DNA from: Candidatus Omnitrophota bacterium
Lineage (GTDB): Bacteria; Omnitrophota; Gorgyraeia; Gygaellales; Profunditerraquicolaceae
Direction of reading: 5' to 3'
DNA length: 46,396 nt
Assembly (NCBI GenBank): GCA_016782485.1
Contig: JADHYK010000003.1
Coordinates: forward strand, 1-46,396
Positions 5,617-45,461 of this stretch are shown here, piece after piece. The position numbers and the translations under genes are program-made. Every line of letters starts with the position of its first letter. The first letter of the stretch is position 1. The notes under the pieces are model-generated. The model was given only the letters and a program-made list of their open reading frames with translations. It did no database searches and was not told the origin of the DNA.

Positions 5617-7716
5617 ATGGGTTTTGATTTATTGATACTGGCTCCGGTGGGTTCAATAACCGCGCTTTTATTTGCTGCTTACCTTGCGTTTTTTATTCTT
5701 AGAAAGGATGAGGGCAACGATACGATGAAAGAGATTGCCCGGGCGGTAAGGATAGGGTCAAGGGCGTACCTTAAAAGGCAGTATTTAGGCGTATCTTTAT
5801 TCTTTTTAGTGGTATTTTTTATCCTTCTGGGCCTGGCATTCAGGAATTACCTGGTTATCTTCGTACCCTTTGCCTTCCTTACCGGAGGGTTCTTTTCCGG
5901 CTTATCCGGGTTTATCGGGATGAGTATCGCCACCCAATCCTCCAACCGCACGGCTGCCGCAGCGATAAAAAGCCTGAACTCCGGCCTGCGCGTTGCTTTT
6001 TCAAGCGGAGCGGTGATGGGGATGGTGGTGGTGGGACTGGGGCTGTTGGATTTAAGTATCTGGTATTATTTCCTCGACTGGTATTATTCTTCACACCCTA
6101 TCCCCATAGGGACGGATAAAATTACCGCGATCACCTCTACCATGCTTTGTTTCGGGATGGGCGCCAGTTCGCAGGCCTTATTTGCCAGGGTAGGCGGCGG
6201 TATCTTTACCAAGGCCGCTGATGTGGGCGCGGACCTGGTCGGTAAAATAGAGGCGGGTATCCCGGAGGATGACCCGCGTAACCCCGCGGTAATCGCCGAT
6301 AACGTAGGCGATAACGTGGGAGATGTCGCGGGCATGGGGGCTGACCTTTACGAATCTTATGTAGGTTCTATCGTTGCTACTTCGGCTTTGGGTGTCGCTG
6401 CTGGCTTAGGCGTGTTGGGTGTAACCGTGCCTATGGTTATGGCAGCGGTAGGGGTGGTAGCGTCGATATTGGGGACATTTTTCGTCAGGAGCAGCGAAGA
6501 GGCAAAACAGAATGTTCTCTTAGCCGCTTTAAGAAAGGGTATTTTTATCAGCGCAATGTTAATAGCGGTGGGTGCTTATTTTCTGATTAAATTTACGCTG
6601 GGCCAGCAGCATATCGGGATTTACTGGTCGGTGGTTACCGGATTAATTGCCGGGGTTTTAATCGGGCTGTCTACGGAATATTATACATCAAGCAATTTTA
6701 AGCCTACGCGTTCTATCGCCGATGCCACCCTCACCGGGCCGGCAACCGTAATTATCAGCGGGATGGCAGTAGGGATGATGTCAACGGCCGTGCCGGTGCT
6801 GGTCGTAGGCAGTGCGATATTGTTGAGTTTCTTTTTTGCCGGGGGGACTGCGAATTTTGCGGCCGGCCTTTACGGTATAGGCATCTCTGCGGTAGGCATG
6901 CTTTCTACCTTAGGGATTACCCTGGCAACCGATGCTTATGGCCCGGTTGCCGATAACGCAGGCGGCAATGCCCAGATGGCGCATTTAGCTCCCGAGGTGA
7001 GAAGAAGGACCGATGCCCTGGACTCTTTAGGCAATACTACGGCGGCAACCGGTAAAGGTTTTGCCATCGGTTCGGCGGCGTTAACTGCCCTGGCATTGAT
7101 TGCCGCATACCGTGACCAGGTAGGGCTGCACGGAGGCAATTTAACCTGCAGCTTTATGAATCCGGCGGCCCTGGTAGGTTTATTTATCGGCGGGATGCTG
7201 CCTTTTCTCTTCTGCTCTCTGACCATGCGCGCGGTAGGCAGGGCAGCGGGTAAGATTGTAGTTGAGGTACGCAGGCAGTTTAAGGAGATCAGCGGCTTGA
7301 TGGAAGGAAAGGCAAAGCCGGATTATGCGGCCTGTGTTACTATTGCTACGGTCGCAGCGCAAAAAGAGATGGTTTTGCCTTCACTCCTGGCAATTATATC
7401 GCCTATCGCCATTGGTTTACTTATCGGGGTAGAGGCGGTTGTAGGCCTGTTAATCGGCGCGACAGTCTGCGGTTTTGTCCTGGCGGTGATGATGGCGAAC
7501 TCCGGCGGCGCCTGGGATAATGCCAAGAAATATATAGAAGAAGGCCATTACGGAGGCAAGGGGTCCCTGTCGCACAAGGCAGGTGTGGTGGGTGATACGG
7601 TAGGAGACCCGTTTAAAGACACCTCCGGCCCCAGCCTGAATATCCTGATTAAGCTGATGTCGATGGTCTCTATCGTTTTTGCCGCCTTCATCGTCTCCAA
7701 CTCCCTGCTCAAATAA
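5617..7716 (+). CDS. hppA: Membrane-bound ion-translocating pyrophosphatase
   Basis: '[56 protein letters not shown]' and '[15 protein letters not shown]' signatures; 699 aa. Confidence 0.97.
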
Positions 7717-7844
7717 AGGTTAGGTAGTTAGGTTAAGGTTAGGAAGCCGGTATGGTAGTTTGGTTAGGGTTAGGGTTTTTACATAACCTTAACCCAATTT
7801 TCAATACCGGCGTCTTAACCCTAACCCAATGACCTAACCCTTTA
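7714..7844. repeat. Imperfect long inverted repeat of TTAGG/TTAGGG-like units (telomere-like, roughly 7-nt periodic)
   Basis: Left arm taaaggttaggtagttaggttaaggttaggaagccggtat...ggttagggttagggtt; right arm is an approximate reverse complement (aaccttaaccc...ataccggcgtcttaaccctaaccc...cctaaccctttag). Confidence 0.85.
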
Positions 7845-7903
7845 GTTATAAAGGCATCTTTTTTAAATATAGATTTTTGCTCTTTTGATGTTATAATAAG
7901 ACT

Positions 7904-8509
7904 ATGGACGATTTAGCATTTGTCCAGAGCTGTATCAGGCAGGATCCATTTGCCTGGGATGAATTCGTTGAGAAATATTCACGCCTTATCTACAGTTACA
8001 TCCACAGAGTCTTACATAGCAAGGGTATTGCCGCCTCAGAAAGTTACGCCGGCGATATCTGCCAGGAACTCTTTCATTCCTTAATCAAGGACAATTTTAA
8101 AAAGCTAAAGACCTACCGCGCTAAAAACGGCTGCTCTCTGGCCAGCTGGCTGAGGCAGGTTAGCGTTAATTTTACCATAGATTATACCCGCAGGATAAAG
8201 CCGGCGGTTTCTATGGACCAGGACGAAGAGGGCAGGGGCCCCTTAAAAAATATTCTTGCCGGCGGCGCAGTTTCGGCGCTGGATGCGCTTATCGGCAAAG
8301 AAAAAATTAGCGGCCTGCACGAATGTATCGACAGGCTGGATAACGAAGATAAATATTTTCTGGAATTATACCTGAACCGCGGGATCAAGCCGGAAAAGTT
8401 AAAGAAACATTTTAAAGTCTCGCGCAGCGCCATAGACATGCGCAAGCTCCGGCTGATAGCGCGCCTGCGGGAGTGTTTCAAGAGCAAAGGTTTTGTGTTA
8501 GATTCTTAA
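7904..8509 (+). CDS. ECF-like RNA polymerase sigma factor
   Basis: sigma2-like 'WDEFVEKYSRLIYSYIHRVL...ICQELFHSLI...TYRAKNGCSLASWLRQVSVNFTIDYTRR' and sigma4-like C-terminal HTH. Confidence 0.85.
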   Translation: MDDLAFVQSCIRQDPFAWDEFVEKYSRLIYSYIHRVLHSKGIAASESYAGDICQELFHSLIKDNFKKLKTYRAKNGCSLASWLRQVSVNFTIDYTRRIKPAVSMDQDEEGRGPLKNILAGGAVSALDALIGKEKISGLHECIDRLDNEDKYFLELYLNRGIKPEKLKKHFKVSRSAIDMRKLRLIARLRECFKSKGFVLDS

Positions 8510-8547
8510 TTTTCTTGCGTCTATTATAGTAGGAGAGGAATACGGCG

Positions 8548-9261
8548 ATGACCAATAAATTAGAGGCTTTGATCAAGTCGGTTTATAACAGCTGGCAGGC
8601 CGCTCAAAAACAACAACAGCAGCAGCAGGGCGCGCACCCCGATGAAGAGGCCTTGGCCTGTTTTCTTGAAGGCCGCCTGAGCGAGCAGGAGGGCGAGGCG
8701 ATAAAGGCGCATTTAGTAAGTTGCCGGGATTGCTCTGAGGCCTTCAGCCTGAGCCTGGAGATGGAGAATCTTGAGGAAAGCCAGCTGCCGCAAGGTGCGC
8801 TTACCTATATAAAGGAGCTGCTGGCAGGCGCAGATACGGGTTCTCTATTGGAGATAGTCCTGCAATTTAAAGAGAGGGCGATAGAGATTTTAAGGACCAG
8901 CGGCGATGTGCTTTTCGGCCAGGAGGTGCTGGCGGCTTCGCTTTTACGTGCGCGCAAGATAAAGGATTTCCGGGACGAGGTTATCATCCTGAAAGATTTC
9001 AAAGAGTTAAGGGTCCAGATCAGGGTGGAGAATAAGTCAGGCAGGAGCTTTGACCTGAATATCTCGGTAAAAGATAAAGAAACGCAGAAGGTGATTAAGG
9101 ATTTAAGGGTTACGCTTATCAGGGAGGACCTGGAGCTGGAGTCTTACCTTACCGGCTCAGGAGCGGTAACTTTTGAGCATGTATTATTAGGCAAGTATAA
9201 ACTGGAGATCTCCGGTATCGACGATAAGCTTGCTACGGTATTATTGGATATAAAGAGCTGA
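8548..9261 (+). CDS. Zinc-finger (zf-HC2/ZAS) putative anti-sigma factor with C-terminal beta-sandwich (carboxypeptidase-regulatory/CnaB-like); no TM helix
   Basis: 'HPDEEALACFLEGRLSEQEGEAIKAHLVSCRDC' with H-x3-C-x2-C; C-terminal 'GSGAVTFEHVLLGKYKLEISG'; directly downstream of the sigma gene. Confidence 0.78.
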   Translation: MTNKLEALIKSVYNSWQAAQKQQQQQQGAHPDEEALACFLEGRLSEQEGEAIKAHLVSCRDCSEAFSLSLEMENLEESQLPQGALTYIKELLAGADTGSLLEIVLQFKERAIEILRTSGDVLFGQEVLAASLLRARKIKDFRDEVIILKDFKELRVQIRVENKSGRSFDLNISVKDKETQKVIKDLRVTLIREDLELESYLTGSGAVTFEHVLLGKYKLEISGIDDKLATVLLDIKS

Positions 9262-9263
9262 CC

Positions 9264-11471
9264 ATGCAGGAAGAGAGCCCTCTGGTTTTGGATATATTAA
9301 AGCAGGACAGTAACCTGAAGATGAGCCTCTTCGAGCAAAAAGAGGTTGCCTCGACGTTAAGGCATTACAACCTCTGCCGGGTCTCGTTTACGGAAATCGA
9401 CAGCTTATGCCAGGAGGCAGTATCTCTTCTGAATAAGGCTAATCAGCGGGGGGCCCTGGAGCTTGAGCTGATTAAGGGCCTGACTAAGACCGGACAGCTA
9501 CTCTGGGACCATTTACTTAGTGCCCCGGTAAAAAACAGGCTCAAAAACACCCGTATCCCGGATTTAATCCTCTCCATAGACGAAGAATTAATCAATATTC
9601 CCTGGGAGCTGCTTTATGACGGAAGTAATTTCCTCTGCCTGAACTTTAATCTGGGCCGGGTGGTTAGGACTAAAGAGGAGCCGGCCGCAGTGCATTACCG
9701 CAGTCAGGCCGCAGTCCCGAATATGCTGATTATGGCTAATCCCACCGACGATTTGCATTCCGCATACCTGGAAGGGCTGAACATAAAAAACCAATTCGAC
9801 CGCAGGAGAAATAAAATCTACATTGATTTTAAGTCTACCCGGATCGATAAGCTGTACGTCAAGAAAAACCTTTGCGATTACGATATCGTGCATTTTGCCG
9901 GCCACTGTGAATACCAGCCCGATAATCCTTCTGAGAGCGGCTGGGTGTTAAGCGACGGCAGGTTCACCGCCGAAGATATAATGGCGATGGGTTCGACATT
10001 CTCTCTGCCGACGCTTATTTTTTCCAATGCCTGCCATTCCGCAGAATCCGCTGCGGGCCTCTTAAGCCAGGATTACCAGAAAGAGAATTACGGCCTTTCC
10101 TCGGCATTTTTATTTTCCGGGGTGCGCCATTATATCGGCTCGGTGCGCAGGATAGAAGATGACTTGAGCCTTTTATTTGCAAAGGAGTTCTATGCCCAGT
10201 TAATCTCCGGCAGGCCCGTAGGGGGCTGTATGCGCATGGCCCGGCTTGCCCTGATCAGGCAATGCGGGATCAACAATATCGCCTGGGCAAGCTACCTTCT
10301 TTACGGAGACCCTAATTTCGCCATTTTTAGAGAAAAGATAAAAGAGGCAAAACCGAAAAAAAGAAAAGGGCTTTTATATTATAAAAAACAGTTAGCCCTG
10401 GTTTCTCTGGCAGCAGCCGCTGTCTCTCTGGGGATATTGCTCTATGCCTGGCTGCCTTCTTTGAATCCCAGTGTTTATTTTCTTTTGTCAAAGTCGCGTA
10501 AATTATATCTTAACGGGAAAAACCAGGAGGTTATTTCCTTATGCGGGCGCATTATCGAAAAGGAACCGGAGTTTCTGGCAGCATACCCTTTGCTTGCCGA
10601 TGCCTACAAAAGGACAGGGGATGAAGAAAACGCCTTAAAACATTATTTTGAATACGCGCGATTCAGCGAACGCCGGGCCGATAAAAAAAACTTAGCCTCG
10701 GCATACCTCTCGATAGGCTGGTTTTATCATCTTGAGGGCGAGCATACCAAGGCCATTGATTTCTATAACAAGGCACTGGCGGTGAGTACGGATAATAAAG
10801 ACAAGTTAAACCAAGCCGATGCCTTAGGAAAAATGGCGGTCTGGTATATGGATAAGGAAGATAACGATAAGGCGCTGGAGCTGTTAACCAGGAGCGCTGA
10901 GATTAACCGCCAGAGAATAAATCATTATAAACACAGGTATAACCTGGCCTGCGATTATTTTAACCTCGGCCTGTTATTCACCAATAAAGATGACCTGGCG
11001 ACGGCAAAGGAGTTTTACCAGAAAAGCTACTTGCTCTTTGAAAAACTGAAACTCAAACACGAGCTGAGCGATTATTATTTCAATATCGGCGAAATCCACC
11101 TTTTTGAAAAGGAGTACCAGAAGGCGCTGGATTCTTATATGAAGGGCCTGGAGATTGACCTGGCACAGGGGAACAGGCAAAGCATCGCCAGCGATTACAG
11201 TATGATCGCAGAGCTGTATATGGCAATGGATGATTTAGGGGAGGCAGAGGAGTATTTTCGCAGTTCCATCGCCCTGGCCAAAGAGATAAATGCCCGCCCG
11301 GAGCTGGCAGAGGCTTATTACCGGCTGGGGGTGCTTTATAAGAAGAAGCCGGGTAAAAGACACCGGGCCAGGGAGTGCCTGCGCCAGGCGCAGGAGATTT
11401 ACCGTTCAATCAACGCAGAAGCGGGGTTCCAGGAGGCTAGAAATGAACTTTTGACCCTGACCAGCAGGTAA
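9264..11471 (+). CDS. CHAT-domain (caspase-like) protease with one TM helix and C-terminal TPR repeats
   Basis: 'YDIVHFAGHCEY' (His214 codon 9903-9905) and 'LIFSNACHSA' (Cys257 codon 10032-10034) fit the CHAT His/Cys dyad; TM 'LALVSLAAAAVSLGILLYAW'; multiple TPRs after it. Confidence 0.88.
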   Translation: MQEESPLVLDILKQDSNLKMSLFEQKEVASTLRHYNLCRVSFTEIDSLCQEAVSLLNKANQRGALELELIKGLTKTGQLLWDHLLSAPVKNRLKNTRIPDLILSIDEELINIPWELLYDGSNFLCLNFNLGRVVRTKEEPAAVHYRSQAAVPNMLIMANPTDDLHSAYLEGLNIKNQFDRRRNKIYIDFKSTRIDKLYVKKNLCDYDIVHFAGHCEYQPDNPSESGWVLSDGRFTAEDIMAMGSTFSLPTLIFSNACHSAESAAGLLSQDYQKENYGLSSAFLFSGVRHYIGSVRRIEDDLSLLFAKEFYAQLISGRPVGGCMRMARLALIRQCGINNIAWASYLLYGDPNFAIFREKIKEAKPKKRKGLLYYKKQLALVSLAAAAVSLGILLYAWLPSLNPSVYFLLSKSRKLYLNGKNQEVISLCGRIIEKEPEFLAAYPLLADAYKRTGDEENALKHYFEYARFSERRADKKNLASAYLSIGWFYHLEGEHTKAIDFYNKALAVSTDNKDKLNQADALGKMAVWYMDKEDNDKALELLTRSAEINRQRINHYKHRYNLACDYFNLGLLFTNKDDLATAKEFYQKSYLLFEKLKLKHELSDYYFNIGEIHLFEKEYQKALDSYMKGLEIDLAQGNRQSIASDYSMIAELYMAMDDLGEAEEYFRSSIALAKEINARPELAEAYYRLGVLYKKKPGKRHRARECLRQAQEIYRSINAEAGFQEARNELLTLTSR

Positions 11472-11608: not shown

Positions 11609-11636
11609 TTGACTTAATAAAAAAATATGGTATACT
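11609..11636 (+). promoter_or_regulatory. sigma70-type promoter for rplM
   Basis: TTGACT (11609-11614), 16-nt spacer, TATACT (11631-11636). Confidence 0.65.
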
Positions 11637-11645
11637 TTTAACTCT

Positions 11646-38268: not shown

Positions 38269-39828
38269 ATGAATTCATTGGGAATATATTTTGGGCCAAA
38301 ACTGATAATCCTTGCTGAAATTAAGGGCCGGAAATTAATAAAGAGCATTCAGATACCTCAGCCAGTAATAGCCAATGATCTGGAGGCAGGGGCCCCTCCT
38401 GAAGTAACGTTAATACAGTTAGTTGCCCTGATTAAGGATGAATTAAGAAAGAAAGAGATTGAGGCCAAAAGAATAAGCCTTTGCCTTTCGGGAAAAGACT
38501 TAATCATCAGGACCTTTGAAATCCCCTTATTACCGCGCAGCGAATTGAAAAGCGCGGTCAACTTTGAAGCCAGAAAATATATCCCCTTCAAGGGCGAAGA
38601 TATAATCTCTGATTTTCAGATAGAATTTGATAGCGTTAATAAGATTAATCGGGTTCTTTTTATAGCCATAAAGAAAGAGTCTCTGGAAAGGTATATTTCT
38701 CTTTTAGAACAGCTGGGCATTGAAATCAGCGGAATTGAATATTCGGCCTTCAGCCTGCTGAAATTATTAAAACTGGCGGGCCCCAGAGACAGTAACGTTA
38801 CCGCAGTAATCAGCGCGGATCTGCAGGGAGAAGACGAAGCCAATTTCTTAGTCCTTAAAAAAGGCTTCCCATTGTTCAGCCGTGATTTTACCATGTTCAG
38901 CGAGGCAGATTCTGTTACTAAAATTGAGGGGGCGCCGGATTCGGGTATGGCCCTGGAAAAATTCAAGACTGAAATTCGCGTTTCCCTGGATTATTTCCAT
39001 CGTAAATTCTCCGATAAAAACATCCAGAAGGTTATCCTTATTGCCAACCCCGATTATCATAACGAATTGGAAGCATTTATGAAGGAACTCAATTTGCCTG
39101 CCCAATTCCTTGATTCCAACAGGCTTAATAAAATATTAGGGGAAGTTTTTTCTTTCAAGCTGGATTTACTTAAAAGTTATTCCTCGGCATTACTGAACAT
39201 AAAGACTAAATTAAAACTGCACCTTCTGAGCGTAAGGGCAAAGACAGAAGGCGTGGAAAAGGCGCTCACTATTGATGAGCGCCTTAGAGAACTGCTTACG
39301 AACTTAAAAGTTGACCTGAGGGTAGTTTTAGCGGCAATATTAGTTTGCCTGATGACTTTCGGGGTTGGTATTTTACGCATCCTTCCTTTTAAAAAAGAAG
39401 CCAAGGATATAAAAACCATGCGCCTGAAGGCAGGCCCGATAGATTCCGCTTCCAGTTATGAAGAATTAGTTAACGTTCAGAAACAGTACCAGGATAAATT
39501 AGACGACCTGGATAAAGTTATAAAAGAACGGCTGTATCTGACAGAGGCTTTGGACACTATACCGCGCGTTACGCCTGAAGGGCTTTGGCTGGCAGAATTG
39601 CAGTATAAATGCGAGGACAACAACCAGAGAGAACTCCTGTTACAGGGTAGCTGTTATTTAGGCGAGCGCGGTAAAGAATTGGAAGTAATTGATAAATTCC
39701 TGTCCGAGCTCAGGAATAGCCCTAATTTTAAAAAGTTATTTCAGGAGGTAAAAATTATTTCTGTTGAGCGCAAGGAAACCGAGGGCAGGCAGGCATCCGA
39801 TTTTATCATTTCTGCTAAAGGTGCTTAA
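38269..39828 (+). CDS. pilM: PilM-PilN fusion, type IV pilus inner-membrane assembly protein
   Basis: N-terminal PilM/actin-like ('KSAVNFEARKYIPF', 'GIEISGIEYSAFSLLKLL'), then TM and PilN-like 'EALDTIPRVTPEGLWLAELQY'. Confidence 0.82.
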   Translation: MNSLGIYFGPKLIILAEIKGRKLIKSIQIPQPVIANDLEAGAPPEVTLIQLVALIKDELRKKEIEAKRISLCLSGKDLIIRTFEIPLLPRSELKSAVNFEARKYIPFKGEDIISDFQIEFDSVNKINRVLFIAIKKESLERYISLLEQLGIEISGIEYSAFSLLKLLKLAGPRDSNVTAVISADLQGEDEANFLVLKKGFPLFSRDFTMFSEADSVTKIEGAPDSGMALEKFKTEIRVSLDYFHRKFSDKNIQKVILIANPDYHNELEAFMKELNLPAQFLDSNRLNKILGEVFSFKLDLLKSYSSALLNIKTKLKLHLLSVRAKTEGVEKALTIDERLRELLTNLKVDLRVVLAAILVCLMTFGVGILRILPFKKEAKDIKTMRLKAGPIDSASSYEELVNVQKQYQDKLDDLDKVIKERLYLTEALDTIPRVTPEGLWLAELQYKCEDNNQRELLLQGSCYLGERGKELEVIDKFLSELRNSPNFKKLFQEVKIISVERKETEGRQASDFIISAKGA

Positions 39829-40368
39829 ATGAACGAAAAAATAGAGATTTCAGAATTAATCCATAAATATAAAAAGCCGATTCTAAACATATCTGTGATT
39901 TTAGCCGCGTTATTGATTGCCTTCAGGATCTATAGCGGCCAGGAAAAAGATATAGCCGCCTTAAAAAAACAACAAGAAGGCGAAACGGAAAAGAACCTGA
40001 TAGCGGGCAATATTGTAGGGCTGAGGGAAAAGCTAAATTCTTATAAGCAGTTTCTCAATAAAAAAGACGTATTAGAGTGTGTAAGAAAGTTAAACAATAT
40101 CGCAGCAAGATCATCGGCTAATATTATTTCTATCGTACCGCAAGGCGCAAAAGAGAATTCTTATTATACCTCCTATCCCTTTAATTTAACCATCTTGGCG
40201 AAAAATTACCATATTCTTGCTAAATTTATAAATGAATTGGAAAAAGATAGCGATATATACCTGATAAACCTGCTTACGATTATAGCGCGGGATTCCGGCG
40301 ATTTAAGCGGAGGCTACTCGGAATTAGAAGCGGAAATACAAATATCGACTATTTTATATAAAGACTGA
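39829..40368 (+). CDS. PilO-like type IV pilus assembly protein
   Basis: One TM, coiled coil, 'PFNLTILAKNYHILAKFINELEK' PilO-like; position after PilM/N. Confidence 0.75.
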   Translation: MNEKIEISELIHKYKKPILNISVILAALLIAFRIYSGQEKDIAALKKQQEGETEKNLIAGNIVGLREKLNSYKQFLNKKDVLECVRKLNNIAARSSANIISIVPQGAKENSYYTSYPFNLTILAKNYHILAKFINELEKDSDIYLINLLTIIARDSGDLSGGYSELEAEIQISTILYKD

Positions 40369-40370
40369 TT

Positions 40371-40868
40371 ATGAATAATAAATTCCGGCGCACAATATTT
40401 ATATCTCTTATAGTTTTGGCCTGTTTTTTAAATGTCGAATCGGCGTTTGCAGCTCGGCGGGCCGAAAGCTACGAGGAGTTGGTGAACATGGGGGAAGCCG
40501 GCGGTGCCAGTGTTGCGCAGGCCCCGGATTCGGCTCAAGCCTCGGATATCATAAAGCCGGCGATTGAGTATCAGGCGGATAATTTTCGCGATCCCTTTCA
40601 AAAATACGCCATAGAACCAAAAGTAAAAGTTAACCAAGGCCAGGCGGATAAAGATTTAGATAAAACTGATTCGGAATTTATAAATAGTTTAAATGTCCAG
40701 GGGATAATTTTAGGAGGCAGGTTTCCCCAGGCAATTGTTAACGATACTGTCGTAAAGGTTGGCGATACGGTCGGGGGAGCCCGCATTATCGGCATAACTA
40801 AAAAAGGAATTTCATTATTAATGCATAACCGTGTCTATACTGCAAATACACAAGGAGGCGAGAGATGA
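40371..40868 (+). CDS. PilP-like pilus assembly protein
   Basis: Signal peptide, 'RDPFQKYA...VQGIILGGRFPQAIVNDTVVKVGDTVGGARIIGITKKGI'. Confidence 0.7.
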   Translation: MNNKFRRTIFISLIVLACFLNVESAFAARRAESYEELVNMGEAGGASVAQAPDSAQASDIIKPAIEYQADNFRDPFQKYAIEPKVKVNQGQADKDLDKTDSEFINSLNVQGIILGGRFPQAIVNDTVVKVGDTVGGARIIGITKKGISLLMHNRVYTANTQGGER

Positions 40869-42493
40869 ACAATATGGCAAAGTTTTTCGTAACTATCTCT
40901 GTTTTTATAATTTTGTTTTCCCTCTTCTTGCCGCGGCTGAATGCTTATACGCAGGATATAGAAACAATCCTCTATGACCCCCAAGTAACCATCTCTATGG
41001 ACCTTAAAGACGCCAGCTTAAAGGATATATTGAAGATATTTTCAATACAGTCCGGATTGAATTTTATCGCTTCCGAAGCGGTCCAGGATAGGAGCATAAC
41101 TTTATACCTGGACAGAGTCCCGCTTGAAGAGGCGATGAGCAAGATATTCAAGGCAAACAACCTCTCCTATGAACTGGGCGGGGATTCCAATATCCTTATC
41201 GTAAAGGACTGGGGCAAGGTGGCGATAGAAACTGTAACCCAGGTTTTTTATCTTAAATATGCCACGGTCTCAACATCGCCGTTAGAGGGCGACATAAATA
41301 ATTATATGGCCCCCTCCACGGACGAGACCGGGGCCTTTGGTCCGTTATCTTCATCTTCCACCGGCTCTTCGGCCACTACTGAGGGAGACAGCGAAGATAA
41401 GGAAAAGGACAAGGGCATCACCAAGGCGATAAGGACGCTTCTTTCCAAGGCCGGTAATATAATTGAAGACCCGCGCACAAACAGCCTGATTATTACAGAT
41501 ACCCCTAACCGTATGGAAGTTATTGCCAAGGTCATTGCTTCGCTGGATATCCCCCAACCACAGGTAATGCTTGAGGTCGAAATGCTGGATGTAAATAAAA
41601 ACGCGGTTGATAAGTTAGGGTTAAATTGGGCAGCTGCAGGTTCTTTTGCGATGACGGTTATCAGCGCAGCGAGAATGACCGGGTTTCCTCTGGGCCCGGC
41701 AGGCCATATGGGGGCCGGCCTTGCTAAAGTCACTAATGATTCCATAGTCGGTGATAGTGCCGCAAAATATAATGCCGGTGAAATAAATTTTCCCACCAAT
41801 TTTAAATGGGTCTTTGATTTCTTAAGGACACAGACCGATACCAAGATATTAGCCAGGCCCCGCCTGATGACTTTATCTAACAGAACTGCGGAAATCCAGA
41901 TTGTTACTAATGAATCTATCGGAACGGTACAGGCAGTATCCGGCGGGGGAACAGCTGCCGTTACGACTTCTACAACAGAGGCAGAAAGGTCACTAACCGG
42001 TGTTTCATTAAGGGTAACTCCACAGGTTAATGCAGAATCGGGCGAGATCACGATGTTTATTTATCCCAGCGTAAGAAATGCCACTACCAGTGTCACCTTT
42101 GCCGGCGGCACCTCTTCCGGCGGGACAGCGCTGCCGACATATAAAGACCCCGCGGAACGCACCACTAAACAGGTTGTACGTATCAAGGACGGAGAGACGG
42201 TTATTTTGGGCGGTTTGATCCGCAGGGAGATATCCGAAACCATAACAAAACTCCCCTTTCTGGGGGATATTCCTTTACTGGGCAACTTCTTCAGGCACAA
42301 ATATAAAGACAAAGACGAGGAACGGGAATTATTGGTTTTTATTACCCCCCATATTGTCAAGGATACGGACCTGAAACTTGCACAGGCACGAAACGCTACT
42401 GCGCTACCGGAAAGAGAGCAGGCTGTGGCCTTAGGCACCAATCGCGAATCCTTGATAAATTCTAATCTGAAGCGTTTTGAAAAGAAAAGATAA
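40865..42493 (+). CDS. pilQ: Type IV pilus/T2SS secretin
   Basis: STN-like 'MDLKDASLKDILKIFSIQSGLNFI', secretin 'PLLGNFFRHKYKDKDERELLVFITPHIV'-type C-terminus. Confidence 0.92.
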   Translation: MNNMAKFFVTISVFIILFSLFLPRLNAYTQDIETILYDPQVTISMDLKDASLKDILKIFSIQSGLNFIASEAVQDRSITLYLDRVPLEEAMSKIFKANNLSYELGGDSNILIVKDWGKVAIETVTQVFYLKYATVSTSPLEGDINNYMAPSTDETGAFGPLSSSSTGSSATTEGDSEDKEKDKGITKAIRTLLSKAGNIIEDPRTNSLIITDTPNRMEVIAKVIASLDIPQPQVMLEVEMLDVNKNAVDKLGLNWAAAGSFAMTVISAARMTGFPLGPAGHMGAGLAKVTNDSIVGDSAAKYNAGEINFPTNFKWVFDFLRTQTDTKILARPRLMTLSNRTAEIQIVTNESIGTVQAVSGGGTAAVTTSTTEAERSLTGVSLRVTPQVNAESGEITMFIYPSVRNATTSVTFAGGTSSGGTALPTYKDPAERTTKQVVRIKDGETVILGGLIRREISETITKLPFLGDIPLLGNFFRHKYKDKDEERELLVFITPHIVKDTDLKLAQARNATALPEREQAVALGTNRESLINSNLKRFEKKR

Positions 42494-44220
42494 TGCCCGA
42501 TAACAGAGAGGGATATTTAAAATTAGGTGAAATCCTGCTTAAGGAAGGCCTGATTACTGCCAGGCAACTGGAAGAGGCGATCAGCGTTCAAAGGCAGAAA
42601 GGGGGCCGTTTAGGCGAGATCATGGTAAAATTGGGGATGATTAAGGAGGAGCAGATAGTAGGCGCTCTTGATAAGCAATTAAGCATCCCTTATTTTTCTT
42701 CAGGGACGGCAAGTTTAAAACCCGCTCCTGATCAGGGGCTGGAGCGCCTTGTCCCTCAGGAATTCGCATTCAAGAATGCAGTTATCCCCCTTTCGCGCAC
42801 TTTAAGGTCGCTGACGGTAGCCATGGCTGATCCTCTGGACCTTATCCTCATCGATAATTTAAGAAAAATAACCGGCTGCGAGATTAATCCTGTTATTGCC
42901 ACCAAATCCGATATCACCAAGGCCATCGTAGAGTTTTACGGAAAGTCGGCGATGTTTAATGAAGCGGTAGAAGCCAGTTATGCCCTTAAGCCCGTTGATA
43001 CTGCCGTCGAAGGGGAGGTATCAGTCGACCAGGAATTAAGTTTAGATAAGTTAATCGCCCGCGCCGAAGAGGCGCCGGTAGTAAAATTAGTTGACCTGAT
43101 AATACGCCAGGCAATCGATGAGCACGCCTCCGATATCCATATCGAACCTTTCAAGGATAAGATTTCTCTGCGCTACCGTATTGACGGCAAGCTTTACGAA
43201 ATCCCCCCTCCTGCAAGGCATTTGCATGTTTCGATAATCTCGCGTATAAAAATATTATCGCGTATGGATATTGCCGAGAAGCGCCTGCCTCAGGACGGTG
43301 CGTTTCTGGTAAAGATAGACGAGCGGCCCATAGACATTAGAGTTTCCACCATACCCACTATCTACGGCGAAAAGATAGTGATGAGGCTGCTGGACAGAAG
43401 CCAGGTGGTCTTAGACCTTAATTTGCTGGGTTTTGATCCCAGTCAGCTTGAATATATACGCAAAGGCATAAGCGCTCCCTATGGCCTGGTATTTTTAACC
43501 GGCCCCACCGGCAGCGGAAAAACTACAACTTTATATGCGATATTAAACGAGATAAAAGGGGCCGCCAAGAACATCATAACTATTGAGGATCCGGTGGAAT
43601 ATAAATTAGAGGGGATTAATCAGGTTCAGGTTAAGCCGGAGATCGGGCTTACCTTTGCGACGGCATTACGCAGTTTTTTAAGGCAGGACCCCGATATAAT
43701 GCTGGTAGGCGAAGTACGAGACCTTGAGACCGCACAAATCTGTATCCGCTCCGCTTTAACCGGGCACTTGGTTTTAAGCACCCTGCATACCAATGACGCC
43801 CCTTCGGCAGTAACCCGGCTTATGGATATCGGTATTGAGTCTTATATGCTTGGGCCTTCATTATTGGCCATCGTGGCACAACGCCTGGTAAGGAAGCTTT
43901 GTCCGGATTGTAAAGAAGCATATGAACCGAACCAGGAGCAGATAAAAAGCGTAAATCTTAAGGCAGAGCTGATATACCGGGCCAGGGGCTGCAGTAAGTG
44001 CAACAAGGTAGGCTATAGGGGCAGGATTTGCGTTGCCGAGGTCATGGTTATTAACGAAGAGATCCGTGATTTGATTAATCAGAAGGCTTCCTTCCAGAGA
44101 ATAAGGGAAGTAGCCAAGGCTAACGGCATGAGTACACTCTATGACTCAGCGATCAAAAAAGTAGAAAAGGGAATAACCTCGCTGGAAGAGGCTTTATCCG
44201 TCACGCTGGGAGAGGAATAA
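42493..44220 (+). CDS. pilB: Type IV pilus/T2SS assembly ATPase
   Basis: GspE N-terminal domain, Walker A 'GPTGSGKTTTLYAIL', 'LRQDPDIMLVGEVRDLETA', CxxC-x(n)-CxxC 'CPDC...CSKC'. Confidence 0.96.
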   Translation: MPDNREGYLKLGEILLKEGLITARQLEEAISVQRQKGGRLGEIMVKLGMIKEEQIVGALDKQLSIPYFSSGTASLKPAPDQGLERLVPQEFAFKNAVIPLSRTLRSLTVAMADPLDLILIDNLRKITGCEINPVIATKSDITKAIVEFYGKSAMFNEAVEASYALKPVDTAVEGEVSVDQELSLDKLIARAEEAPVVKLVDLIIRQAIDEHASDIHIEPFKDKISLRYRIDGKLYEIPPPARHLHVSIISRIKILSRMDIAEKRLPQDGAFLVKIDERPIDIRVSTIPTIYGEKIVMRLLDRSQVVLDLNLLGFDPSQLEYIRKGISAPYGLVFLTGPTGSGKTTTLYAILNEIKGAAKNIITIEDPVEYKLEGINQVQVKPEIGLTFATALRSFLRQDPDIMLVGEVRDLETAQICIRSALTGHLVLSTLHTNDAPSAVTRLMDIGIESYMLGPSLLAIVAQRLVRKLCPDCKEAYEPNQEQIKSVNLKAELIYRARGCSKCNKVGYRGRICVAEVMVINEEIRDLINQKASFQRIREVAKANGMSTLYDSAIKKVEKGITSLEEALSVTLGEE

Positions 44221-44222
44221 AA

Positions 44223-45461
44223 ATGGCGAAGTTCTTTTATATAGCAAGGGATAAAGCGGGCAGGAAGGAAACCGGCGTTATAGAGGCCCCGAACCAGGAC
44301 GATGTGATCAGCCGGTTGCATGCGAAAGCATTGATTGTGATCAGCATCTTTGCTGAACACGAGCAGGCCATAACCGCCGTAGCTGCCGATGCCATAGGTA
44401 AAAAAAAACACAGGTGGAAACGTTACCGCATTACCAATGATGACCTGGTTATTTTATGCCGGCAGTTAGCCACGCTTTTGGGCGCCGGAGTCACCATACT
44501 GAAAAGCCTGGATATTATCGCACAGCAGGTAACCAGCCGCAGGCTTTATAATATAATAAAGGACCTTGAAAAAAACATGGAGGCCGGCCTTAGTTTCCAT
44601 GCTGCAGTTACAAGGCATCCGGATATATTTTCCGAGCTATGGACTAACCTTATAGAGAGCGGGGAGGCTTCAGGAAGTCTGGCGATGGTATTGAGCCGCC
44701 TGGCCGCTTATCTTGAGCGCAATGCGGCTTTTAAAAGAAAGGTTGTCTCCGCGCTCATCTATCCTGTAATACTTCTATTGGCCGGTACAGGGGCATTATT
44801 TTTTCTCACCTTTAAAATAATTCCTACCTTTGCGGAGTTATTCAAGGGGTTTGGCATTACCCTGCCGTTTTTGACGCGCCTGTTGATTGCAGGCAGCAAC
44901 TTCCTTAAAAGCAACGTACTCATAATCATCGGCCTGGTTATTTCTATTTTCTGGATTATACGTAAATACCTGAAGACAAAAATAGGACGGAGAAAGTTTG
45001 AGGAATTTGCCTTTACCTTACCGGTATTTGGGGATTTTTTCAGGGCTTTGGTTGTGGAAAGATTTTCTTCAGGAATGTCCACGCTGATTGAAAGCGGCGT
45101 ACCCATAATCTATTCTTTGCAGATAACCGAACACACCGTAGCCAATCTGGTGTTATCCGATATTGTCCGGGGGATCAAAGAGGCGGTGCGTGACGGAAAG
45201 TCGTTGAGCCAACAGCTGGAAAAAAGCGACTTCTTTGAACCGATGGTGGTGCAGATGGTAAGGATCGGCGAGGAAATCGGAGAACTGCCGGATATGTTTA
45301 AGAGAATCAATGCCTTTTATCAGGAGTACGTGGAGACCTTCCTGACCAGGGTTACCTCTATGTTTGAACCCCTGATGCTTTTATTTATGGGGGTAGTGAT
45401 CGGCATAATGATTATCGGGATGTTCTTGCCGATATTCCAGATTGCGCAGATCGGGGGATAA
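44223..45461 (+). CDS. pilC: Type IV pilus/T2SS inner-membrane platform protein
   Basis: GspF/PilC architecture, 'LCRQLATLLGAGVTILKSLDII', C-terminal 'MFEPLMLLFMGVVIGIMIIGMFLPIFQIAQ'. Confidence 0.95.
   Translation: MAKFFYIARDKAGRKETGVIEAPNQDDVISRLHAKALIVISIFAEHEQAITAVAADAIGKKKHRWKRYRITNDDLVILCRQLATLLGAGVTILKSLDIIAQQVTSRRLYNIIKDLEKNMEAGLSFHAAVTRHPDIFSELWTNLIESGEASGSLAMVLSRLAAYLERNAAFKRKVVSALIYPVILLLAGTGALFFLTFKIIPTFAELFKGFGITLPFLTRLLIAGSNFLKSNVLIIIGLVISIFWIIRKYLKTKIGRRKFEEFAFTLPVFGDFFRALVVERFSSGMSTLIESGVPIIYSLQITEHTVANLVLSDIVRGIKEAVRDGKSLSQQLEKSDFFEPMVVQMVRIGEEIGELPDMFKRINAFYQEYVETFLTRVTSMFEPLMLLFMGVVIGIMIIGMFLPIFQIAQIGG

Follow-up and report, generated by a model that had tools for sequence, protein, structure and literature searches.

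The window analyzed here, i.e., the whole stretch of 46,396 nucleotides, harbors an operon encoding an ECF-type sigma factor, a zf-HC2 protein (ZAS) and a membrane-anchored CHAT protein with TPRs (CHAT-TM-TPR), and our results favor, with somewhat better than even confidence, a role of these three genes as the regulatory core of a CHAT-gated natural-competence switch. Considering the conserved linkage of the triad, the catalytic dyad of CHAT and the presence of a promoter motif before com and recombination genes, the most likely identity of the operon sigma is that of the Omnitrophota competence sigma factor, under a CRISPR-independent CHAT gate.

Our computations show the gene linkage, the conserved dyad, the bias in topology, and the promoters with their target genes; around these, we infer ZAS-sigma binding, ZAS cleavage, a signal and its timing as follows. 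A housekeeping promoter, probably giving a leaderless mRNA, would supply the sigma factor constitutively, and the soluble ZAS protein would keep it inactive, with the N-terminal zinc domain of ZAS lying on sigma and its C-terminal beta-sandwich facing CHAT. CHAT would be a cytoplasmic caspase-like protease that a single TM helix tethers to TPRs in the periplasm; a signal perceived there by the TPRs would activate CHAT, which would then cut ZAS and free the sigma factor. Free sigma would transcribe from GTTAGATT-N13-CGTCTATT promoters the genes comEA-comEC, comM, spoVG-aroK-dprA, recA, radC, a propeller gene and ZAS-CHAT itself, and this last transcription would re-supply the inhibitor, ending the pulse. 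We give an even chance to the fuller claim that natural competence across Omnitrophota is triggered when a CRISPR-independent, membrane-anchored caspase-like protease, sensing through periplasmic TPRs, cleaves a soluble anti-sigma factor, the triad being an ancient signaling module of the kind found in type III-E CRISPR systems, with a reduced version in Leptospira.

Conserved linkage of the three genes

The sigma, ZAS and CHAT-TM-TPR genes (201, 237 and 735 aa, respectively) are adjacent and on the same strand, separated by only 38 bp (sigma-ZAS) and 2 bp (ZAS-CHAT); open reading frames and family matches agree with the three co-directional genes that a preliminary description had placed here (Table 1). 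Conserved synteny, which that description had put forward as a check, was found in all of the 68 named Omnitrophota loci sampled, each with at least 1400 bp of upstream sequence: the three genes occur together in 67 of them, and in the remaining locus the sigma gene is N-masked, with its 3' end encoding ...CFRSKGFKLDF still visible. This linkage is far above chance. ZAS always sits between sigma and CHAT in the loci examined, and in the triads inspected, ZAS and CHAT are encoded by distinct genes.

Table 1. Features of the operon, with positions in the window.
Feature	Position	Strand	Basis
Extended -10 element TGTTATAAT, housekeeping-type, 6 nt from sigma ATG	7889..7897	+	conserved in orthologous loci
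ECF-type sigma factor, 201 aa, regions 2 and 4	7904..8509	+	TIGR02937 9.8e-16
Predicted promoter of operon sigma, GTTAGATT-N13-CGTCTATT	8497..8525	+	exact match in window
Soluble ZAS-type protein, likely anti-sigma factor	8548..9261	+	zf-HC2 8.6e-05
Predicted zinc site H30, H55, C59, C62	8635..8733	+	conserved in orthologues
ZAS C-terminal beta-sandwich domain	8869..9255	+	conserved as far as Leptospira
LRAR motif, residues 133-136, speculative cleavage site	8944..8955	+	low-confidence loop
CHAT-TM-TPR membrane protein	9264..11471	+	CHAT 5.3e-36 + TPRs
CHAT domain (caspase-like, clan CD)	9486..10310	+	PF12770; dyad His214, Cys257
Single TM helix after K/R-rich segment	10392..10463	+	hydropathy, charge bias
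TPR array, predicted periplasmic	10503..11411	+	Pfam TPR matches; side from charge bias

CHAT orthologues come mostly from metagenome-assembled genomes named Candidatus Omnitrophota and are present in almost every genome of the family; a single CHAT gene was found in the host genome (1.04 Mb, 62 contigs, ~90% complete). Among 98 relatives, 78 gave CHAT matches at E<=0.001, the weak ones being TPR matches only; strong matches, with adjoining ZAS matches, fill the family and include some other members of the order. Further out, the strong CHAT matches (G097, G140, G207, G209 twice, G220 and G272) all lie in triads, the G140 protein comprising CHAT plus TM only, and the weak ones (G116 and G224) lie outside triads. 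A Leptospira interrogans record (L161, 2972-6083) carries a sigma factor, a ZAS-like protein that shares the C-terminal domain and has no zinc motif, and a CHAT protein of 403 aa devoid of TM and TPRs, with its dyad kept as YSGH/NSC; this record is named plasmid, yet it carries dnaE and thiD. The linkage of the triad is ancient, spanning the named loci, the distant Omnitrophota and this reduced Leptospira version.

Regarding the surroundings of the operon, hppA (proton-pumping pyrophosphatase; window 5617-7716) is found upstream of the sigma gene at 32 of 56 loci, and imperfect TTAGGG/CCCTAA-like repeats with inverted arms are located between both genes (window 7717-7850). The gene rplM was discarded as a conserved downstream neighbor (0/64 loci). 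A mobile or phage origin of the triad was also rejected, as viral contigs gave no confirmed relative; plasmid-borne CHAT proteins of Rhizobium, Agrobacterium, Hymenobacter and Paracoccus are found without an adjacent sigma gene.

The CHAT-TM-TPR and ZAS proteins

The CHAT-TM-TPR protein is sequentially organized in a CHAT domain (residues 75-349), a TM helix (~377) and TPRs (414-716), with one hydrophobic segment (residues ~377-395), and no such segment was found in sigma or ZAS. By charge comparison, the residues N-terminal of the TM helix are the more positive side in 66 of 68 orthologues, and because of this bias the CHAT domain is probably cytoplasmic, on the same side as ZAS and sigma, which agrees with the topology originally proposed (CHAT inside, TPRs outside). 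The catalytic His and Cys of CHAT peptidases are present in the sequence, and the His214/Cys257 dyad (codons 9903-9905 and 10032-10034), also recognized in the preliminary description, is invariant in 41/41 and 81/81 alignment rows, never being lost in homologues; D299 is likewise invariant in the 81 rows. AlphaFold models of read-through fusions of one orthologous locus (L144; sigma-ZAS and ZAS-CHAT, stop read as Ser) displayed folded domains, with pTM values of 0.60 and 0.62, respectively. The closest solved fold to the ZAS-CHAT model is Csx29 (8eex, Foldseek 3.9e-11); Csx29 and separase were its best structural matches, with DdvA, a transmembrane anti-sigma, ranking lower.

With the same sigma factor and competence regulon, CHAT may instead be a ZAS-binding scaffold with conformational release, or may cut another protein, which we consider unlikely: the co-conservation of the ZAS C-terminal domain with CHAT as far as Leptospira would suit a substrate and a binding partner equally; however, the invariance of the dyad, retained even in the reduced Leptospira protein, argues against a pure scaffold, which would be expected to tolerate dyad loss.

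ZAS is likely an anti-sigma factor, as judged from its zf-HC2 domain (detected in 18 of 24 members) and its Hx3Cx2C motif, characteristic of anti-sigma domains. H55, C59 and C62 are present in 71-72 of 74 alignment rows, and position 30 is H in 68 rows and C in 3. A convincing TM helix is absent from the orthologues, with borderline hydropathy peaks in 3/69, so the soluble nature first attributed to this protein holds. Weak matches to RsrA and ChrR models and the complete H/C-H-C-C site would suit a redox- or metal-responsive zinc anti-sigma of the RsrA/ChrR type, acting as the direct sensor with CHAT as a merely co-transcribed target; nevertheless, this is very unlikely, since the zinc ligands appear dispensable, having been lost in G207, G097 and Leptospira, where the C-terminal domain, CHAT and the linkage persist. 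Strands of this C-terminal domain appear in both structure models, and R134, R187, S199, F209 and Y217 are invariant in ZAS. A site near R134 for the proposed cleavage by CHAT is speculative: the LRAR of the window is LRSR in most orthologues, with R134 in 74/74, and the stretch falls in a block of pLDDT ~46 in the ZAS-CHAT model.

Promoters and predicted regulon

The sigma factor matches Sigma70_r2 and the sigma70-ECF model over nearly its full length, with SigW (5wuq, 1.8e-15) as the top PDB profile match, and it combines sigma2 and sigma4 without sigma3 in about 200 aa, as ECF factors do; of the 22 members of its orthologue set, all contain Sigma70_r2 and 15 contain Sigma70_r4. Only three Sigma70_r2 proteins were found in the host genome, the operon sigma among them and being the sole one of ECF size. 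Near the sigma start, TGnTATAAT with at least 7/8 matches occurs in 57 of 67 orthologous loci, mostly 6-9 nt from the ATG, and in 0/65 of control stretches further upstream. From this spacing, the sigma mRNA is predicted to be probably leaderless, starting at the ATG. Autoregulation of sigma was rejected, as the region upstream of its gene contains no ECF motif and has this sigma70 extended -10 instead. In the window, rplM displays a TATAAT-like element, TGGTATACT (11620-11645), ~9 nt before its ATG, thus leaderless promoters may be common in the lineage.

A predicted promoter for ZAS-CHAT overlaps the last sigma codons. Its motif, GTTAGATT-N13-CGTCTATT, precedes ZAS with an unvarying spacing of 13 at 63 of the 69 loci (counted at >=14/16 matches at that spacing), and was found in none of the control regions upstream of sigma or CHAT; one relative (G046) has it at spacing 14. 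From its position in the sigma factor's own operon, its ECF-like -10 (CGTC) and the presence of only three Sigma70_r2 proteins, we infer that the operon sigma reads this motif. Such a sigma-dependent promoter before ZAS-CHAT would result in negative feedback, and therefore in a pulse. The motif is also carried by a secreted beta-propeller gene located downstream of CHAT on the same strand in 35 of the 64 loci whose downstream sequence spans 1 kb or more (37 including two on the opposite strand). Its product (L169 1471-3030, host C11; L072-L151 downstream of CHAT) is Sortilin/YCF48-like and secreted, with a helical C-terminal part; it is among the commonest predicted targets and may partner the TPR domain in the periplasm.

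The motif, derived only from the ZAS-CHAT and propeller promoters, was searched genome-wide. The host genome contains 8 sites at <=2 mismatches, which precede ZAS-CHAT, comEA-comEC, comM/yifB, the propeller gene, two ORF6N genes and two others; a site with 3 mismatches precedes spoVG-aroK-dprA, where relatives keep the GTTAGAAA variant. In 14 triad relatives, 147 sites were found at <=2 mismatches, 75 of them exact, whereas the reversed pattern gave 25 near matches in the same genomes. Over 16 genomes, host included, with downstream genes identified from NCBIfam and Pfam, the motif precedes comEA in at least 13, the propeller gene in at least 12, comM in at least 11, recA in at least 9, the dprA operon in at least 8 and radC in at least 4, all of these being lower bounds from a subset of sites examined. 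A sigma-type promoter is found before com genes, as in a competence sigma regulon, also in genomes that had no part in deriving the motif; in the 8 genomes examined after this pattern had emerged (G154, G024, G043, G068, G067, G061, G065 and G066), comEA lies behind the motif in 5. Further motif-preceded genes encode REP-associated transposases, ORF6N proteins and toxin-antitoxin pairs.

REP-associated tyrosine transposases repeatedly lie behind the motif (L201, L202, L213, L227, L228, L237, L246, L260, L264 and L265), and a Cas3 gene (L216) lies behind an exact motif in G006, a possible coupling of competence and CRISPR defence. The window also contains a type IV pilus cluster (38269-45461; PilM/N, PilO, secretin, PilB-type ATPase and PilC-type protein), a plausible DNA-uptake partner with no sigma motif in front.

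Of the 17 genomes examined beyond the family in which the triad is missing, only G061 (6) and G069 (1) contain exact sites, and the other 15 contain none; five family genomes without a CHAT match still have exact motifs, and few sites were found in G057, G043 and G042. The motif without detected CHAT, in G061 and some family members, perhaps reflects assembly gaps. Since G061 carries the motif and the competence targets, with no triad detected, another sigma factor might read the motif, the triad being one member of a regulon controlled elsewhere, but this is highly improbable considering the ECF-like -10, the lack of a second ECF-sized sigma among those found in the host and the scarcity of exact motifs in triad-less genomes from outside the family.

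Relation to known systems and implications

The triad would act like the Csx29/Csx30 and CalpL/CalpT cascades and belongs to neither; the lack of a RAMP gene, the reversed domain order, the membrane anchor and the different regulon place it outside these groups. In type III-E systems, Csx29 cleavage of a sigma inhibitor has been demonstrated (PMC10028731), and a CHAT protease, a sigma inhibitor and an ECF sigma are found side by side both in Csx29/Csx30/CASP-sigma and here, with Csx29 as the nearest solved fold to our CHAT domain. Unlike the soluble TPR-CHAT of type III-E, however, the order here is CHAT-TM-TPR with a membrane anchor, the predicted regulon is competence, and the sigma factor scored 21.1 bits against the III-E sigma model, whose cut-off is 100. 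Furthermore, no match to the RAMP family (PF03787) was obtained in the ~90% complete host genome; a CRISPR type III link was thus rejected, consistent with the CRISPR independence put forward earlier. The triad also resembles CalpL/CalpT/CalpS (PMC11417357) as a cascade of protease, anti-sigma and ECF sigma, although CalpL belongs to the SAVED-Lon proteases and is switched on by cyclic oligoadenylate, and the protease here is CHAT-TM-TPR.

The nearest non-CRISPR precedent is DdvA of Myxococcus, a single polypeptide containing both zf-HC2 and CHAT. DdvA/DdvS (PDB 8rot, 8rw5) shares with the triad the zf-HC2 anti-sigma domain, a TM segment, CHAT and an ECF sigma; yet DdvA is one transmembrane chain with a C-terminal CHAT, whereas ZAS is soluble here and the N-terminal cytoplasmic CHAT belongs to a separate protein. 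The path proposed here from an envelope signal through anti-sigma proteolysis to a freed ECF sigma is like that of RIP (RseA/DegS/RseP), except that RseA places the anti-sigma in the membrane, and here the protease is in the membrane and the anti-sigma is soluble. ComX/SigX of streptococci and SigH of staphylococci are alternative sigma factors driving com, dprA, recA and radC, the same targets predicted for the operon sigma; to our knowledge, they are not under a neighboring CHAT protease. Our literature search found no CHAT-ECF operon besides CRISPR and no report of a CHAT-linked competence sigma.

The preliminary description is partly supported. Two of its four refuting conditions, no conserved linkage and loss of the dyad, are contradicted by our data, and its topology, soluble ZAS and CRISPR independence hold up; it missed the sigma-dependent ZAS promoter, the competence regulon and the DdvA precedent; the ZAS promoter and the regulon are new in this work, the regulon being the larger finding.

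Omnitrophota occur widely, and the genomes analyzed here were assembled from metagenomes. With this operon, DNA uptake in these bacteria gains a candidate master regulator, for which both a promoter and a list of targets are defined. If true, CHAT control of sigma factors would constitute a core chromosomal pathway outside CRISPR, with the classical membrane layout inverted; it would offer a testable origin for the Csx29-Csx30-sigma module, as well as a novel path from an envelope signal to the onset of horizontal gene transfer.
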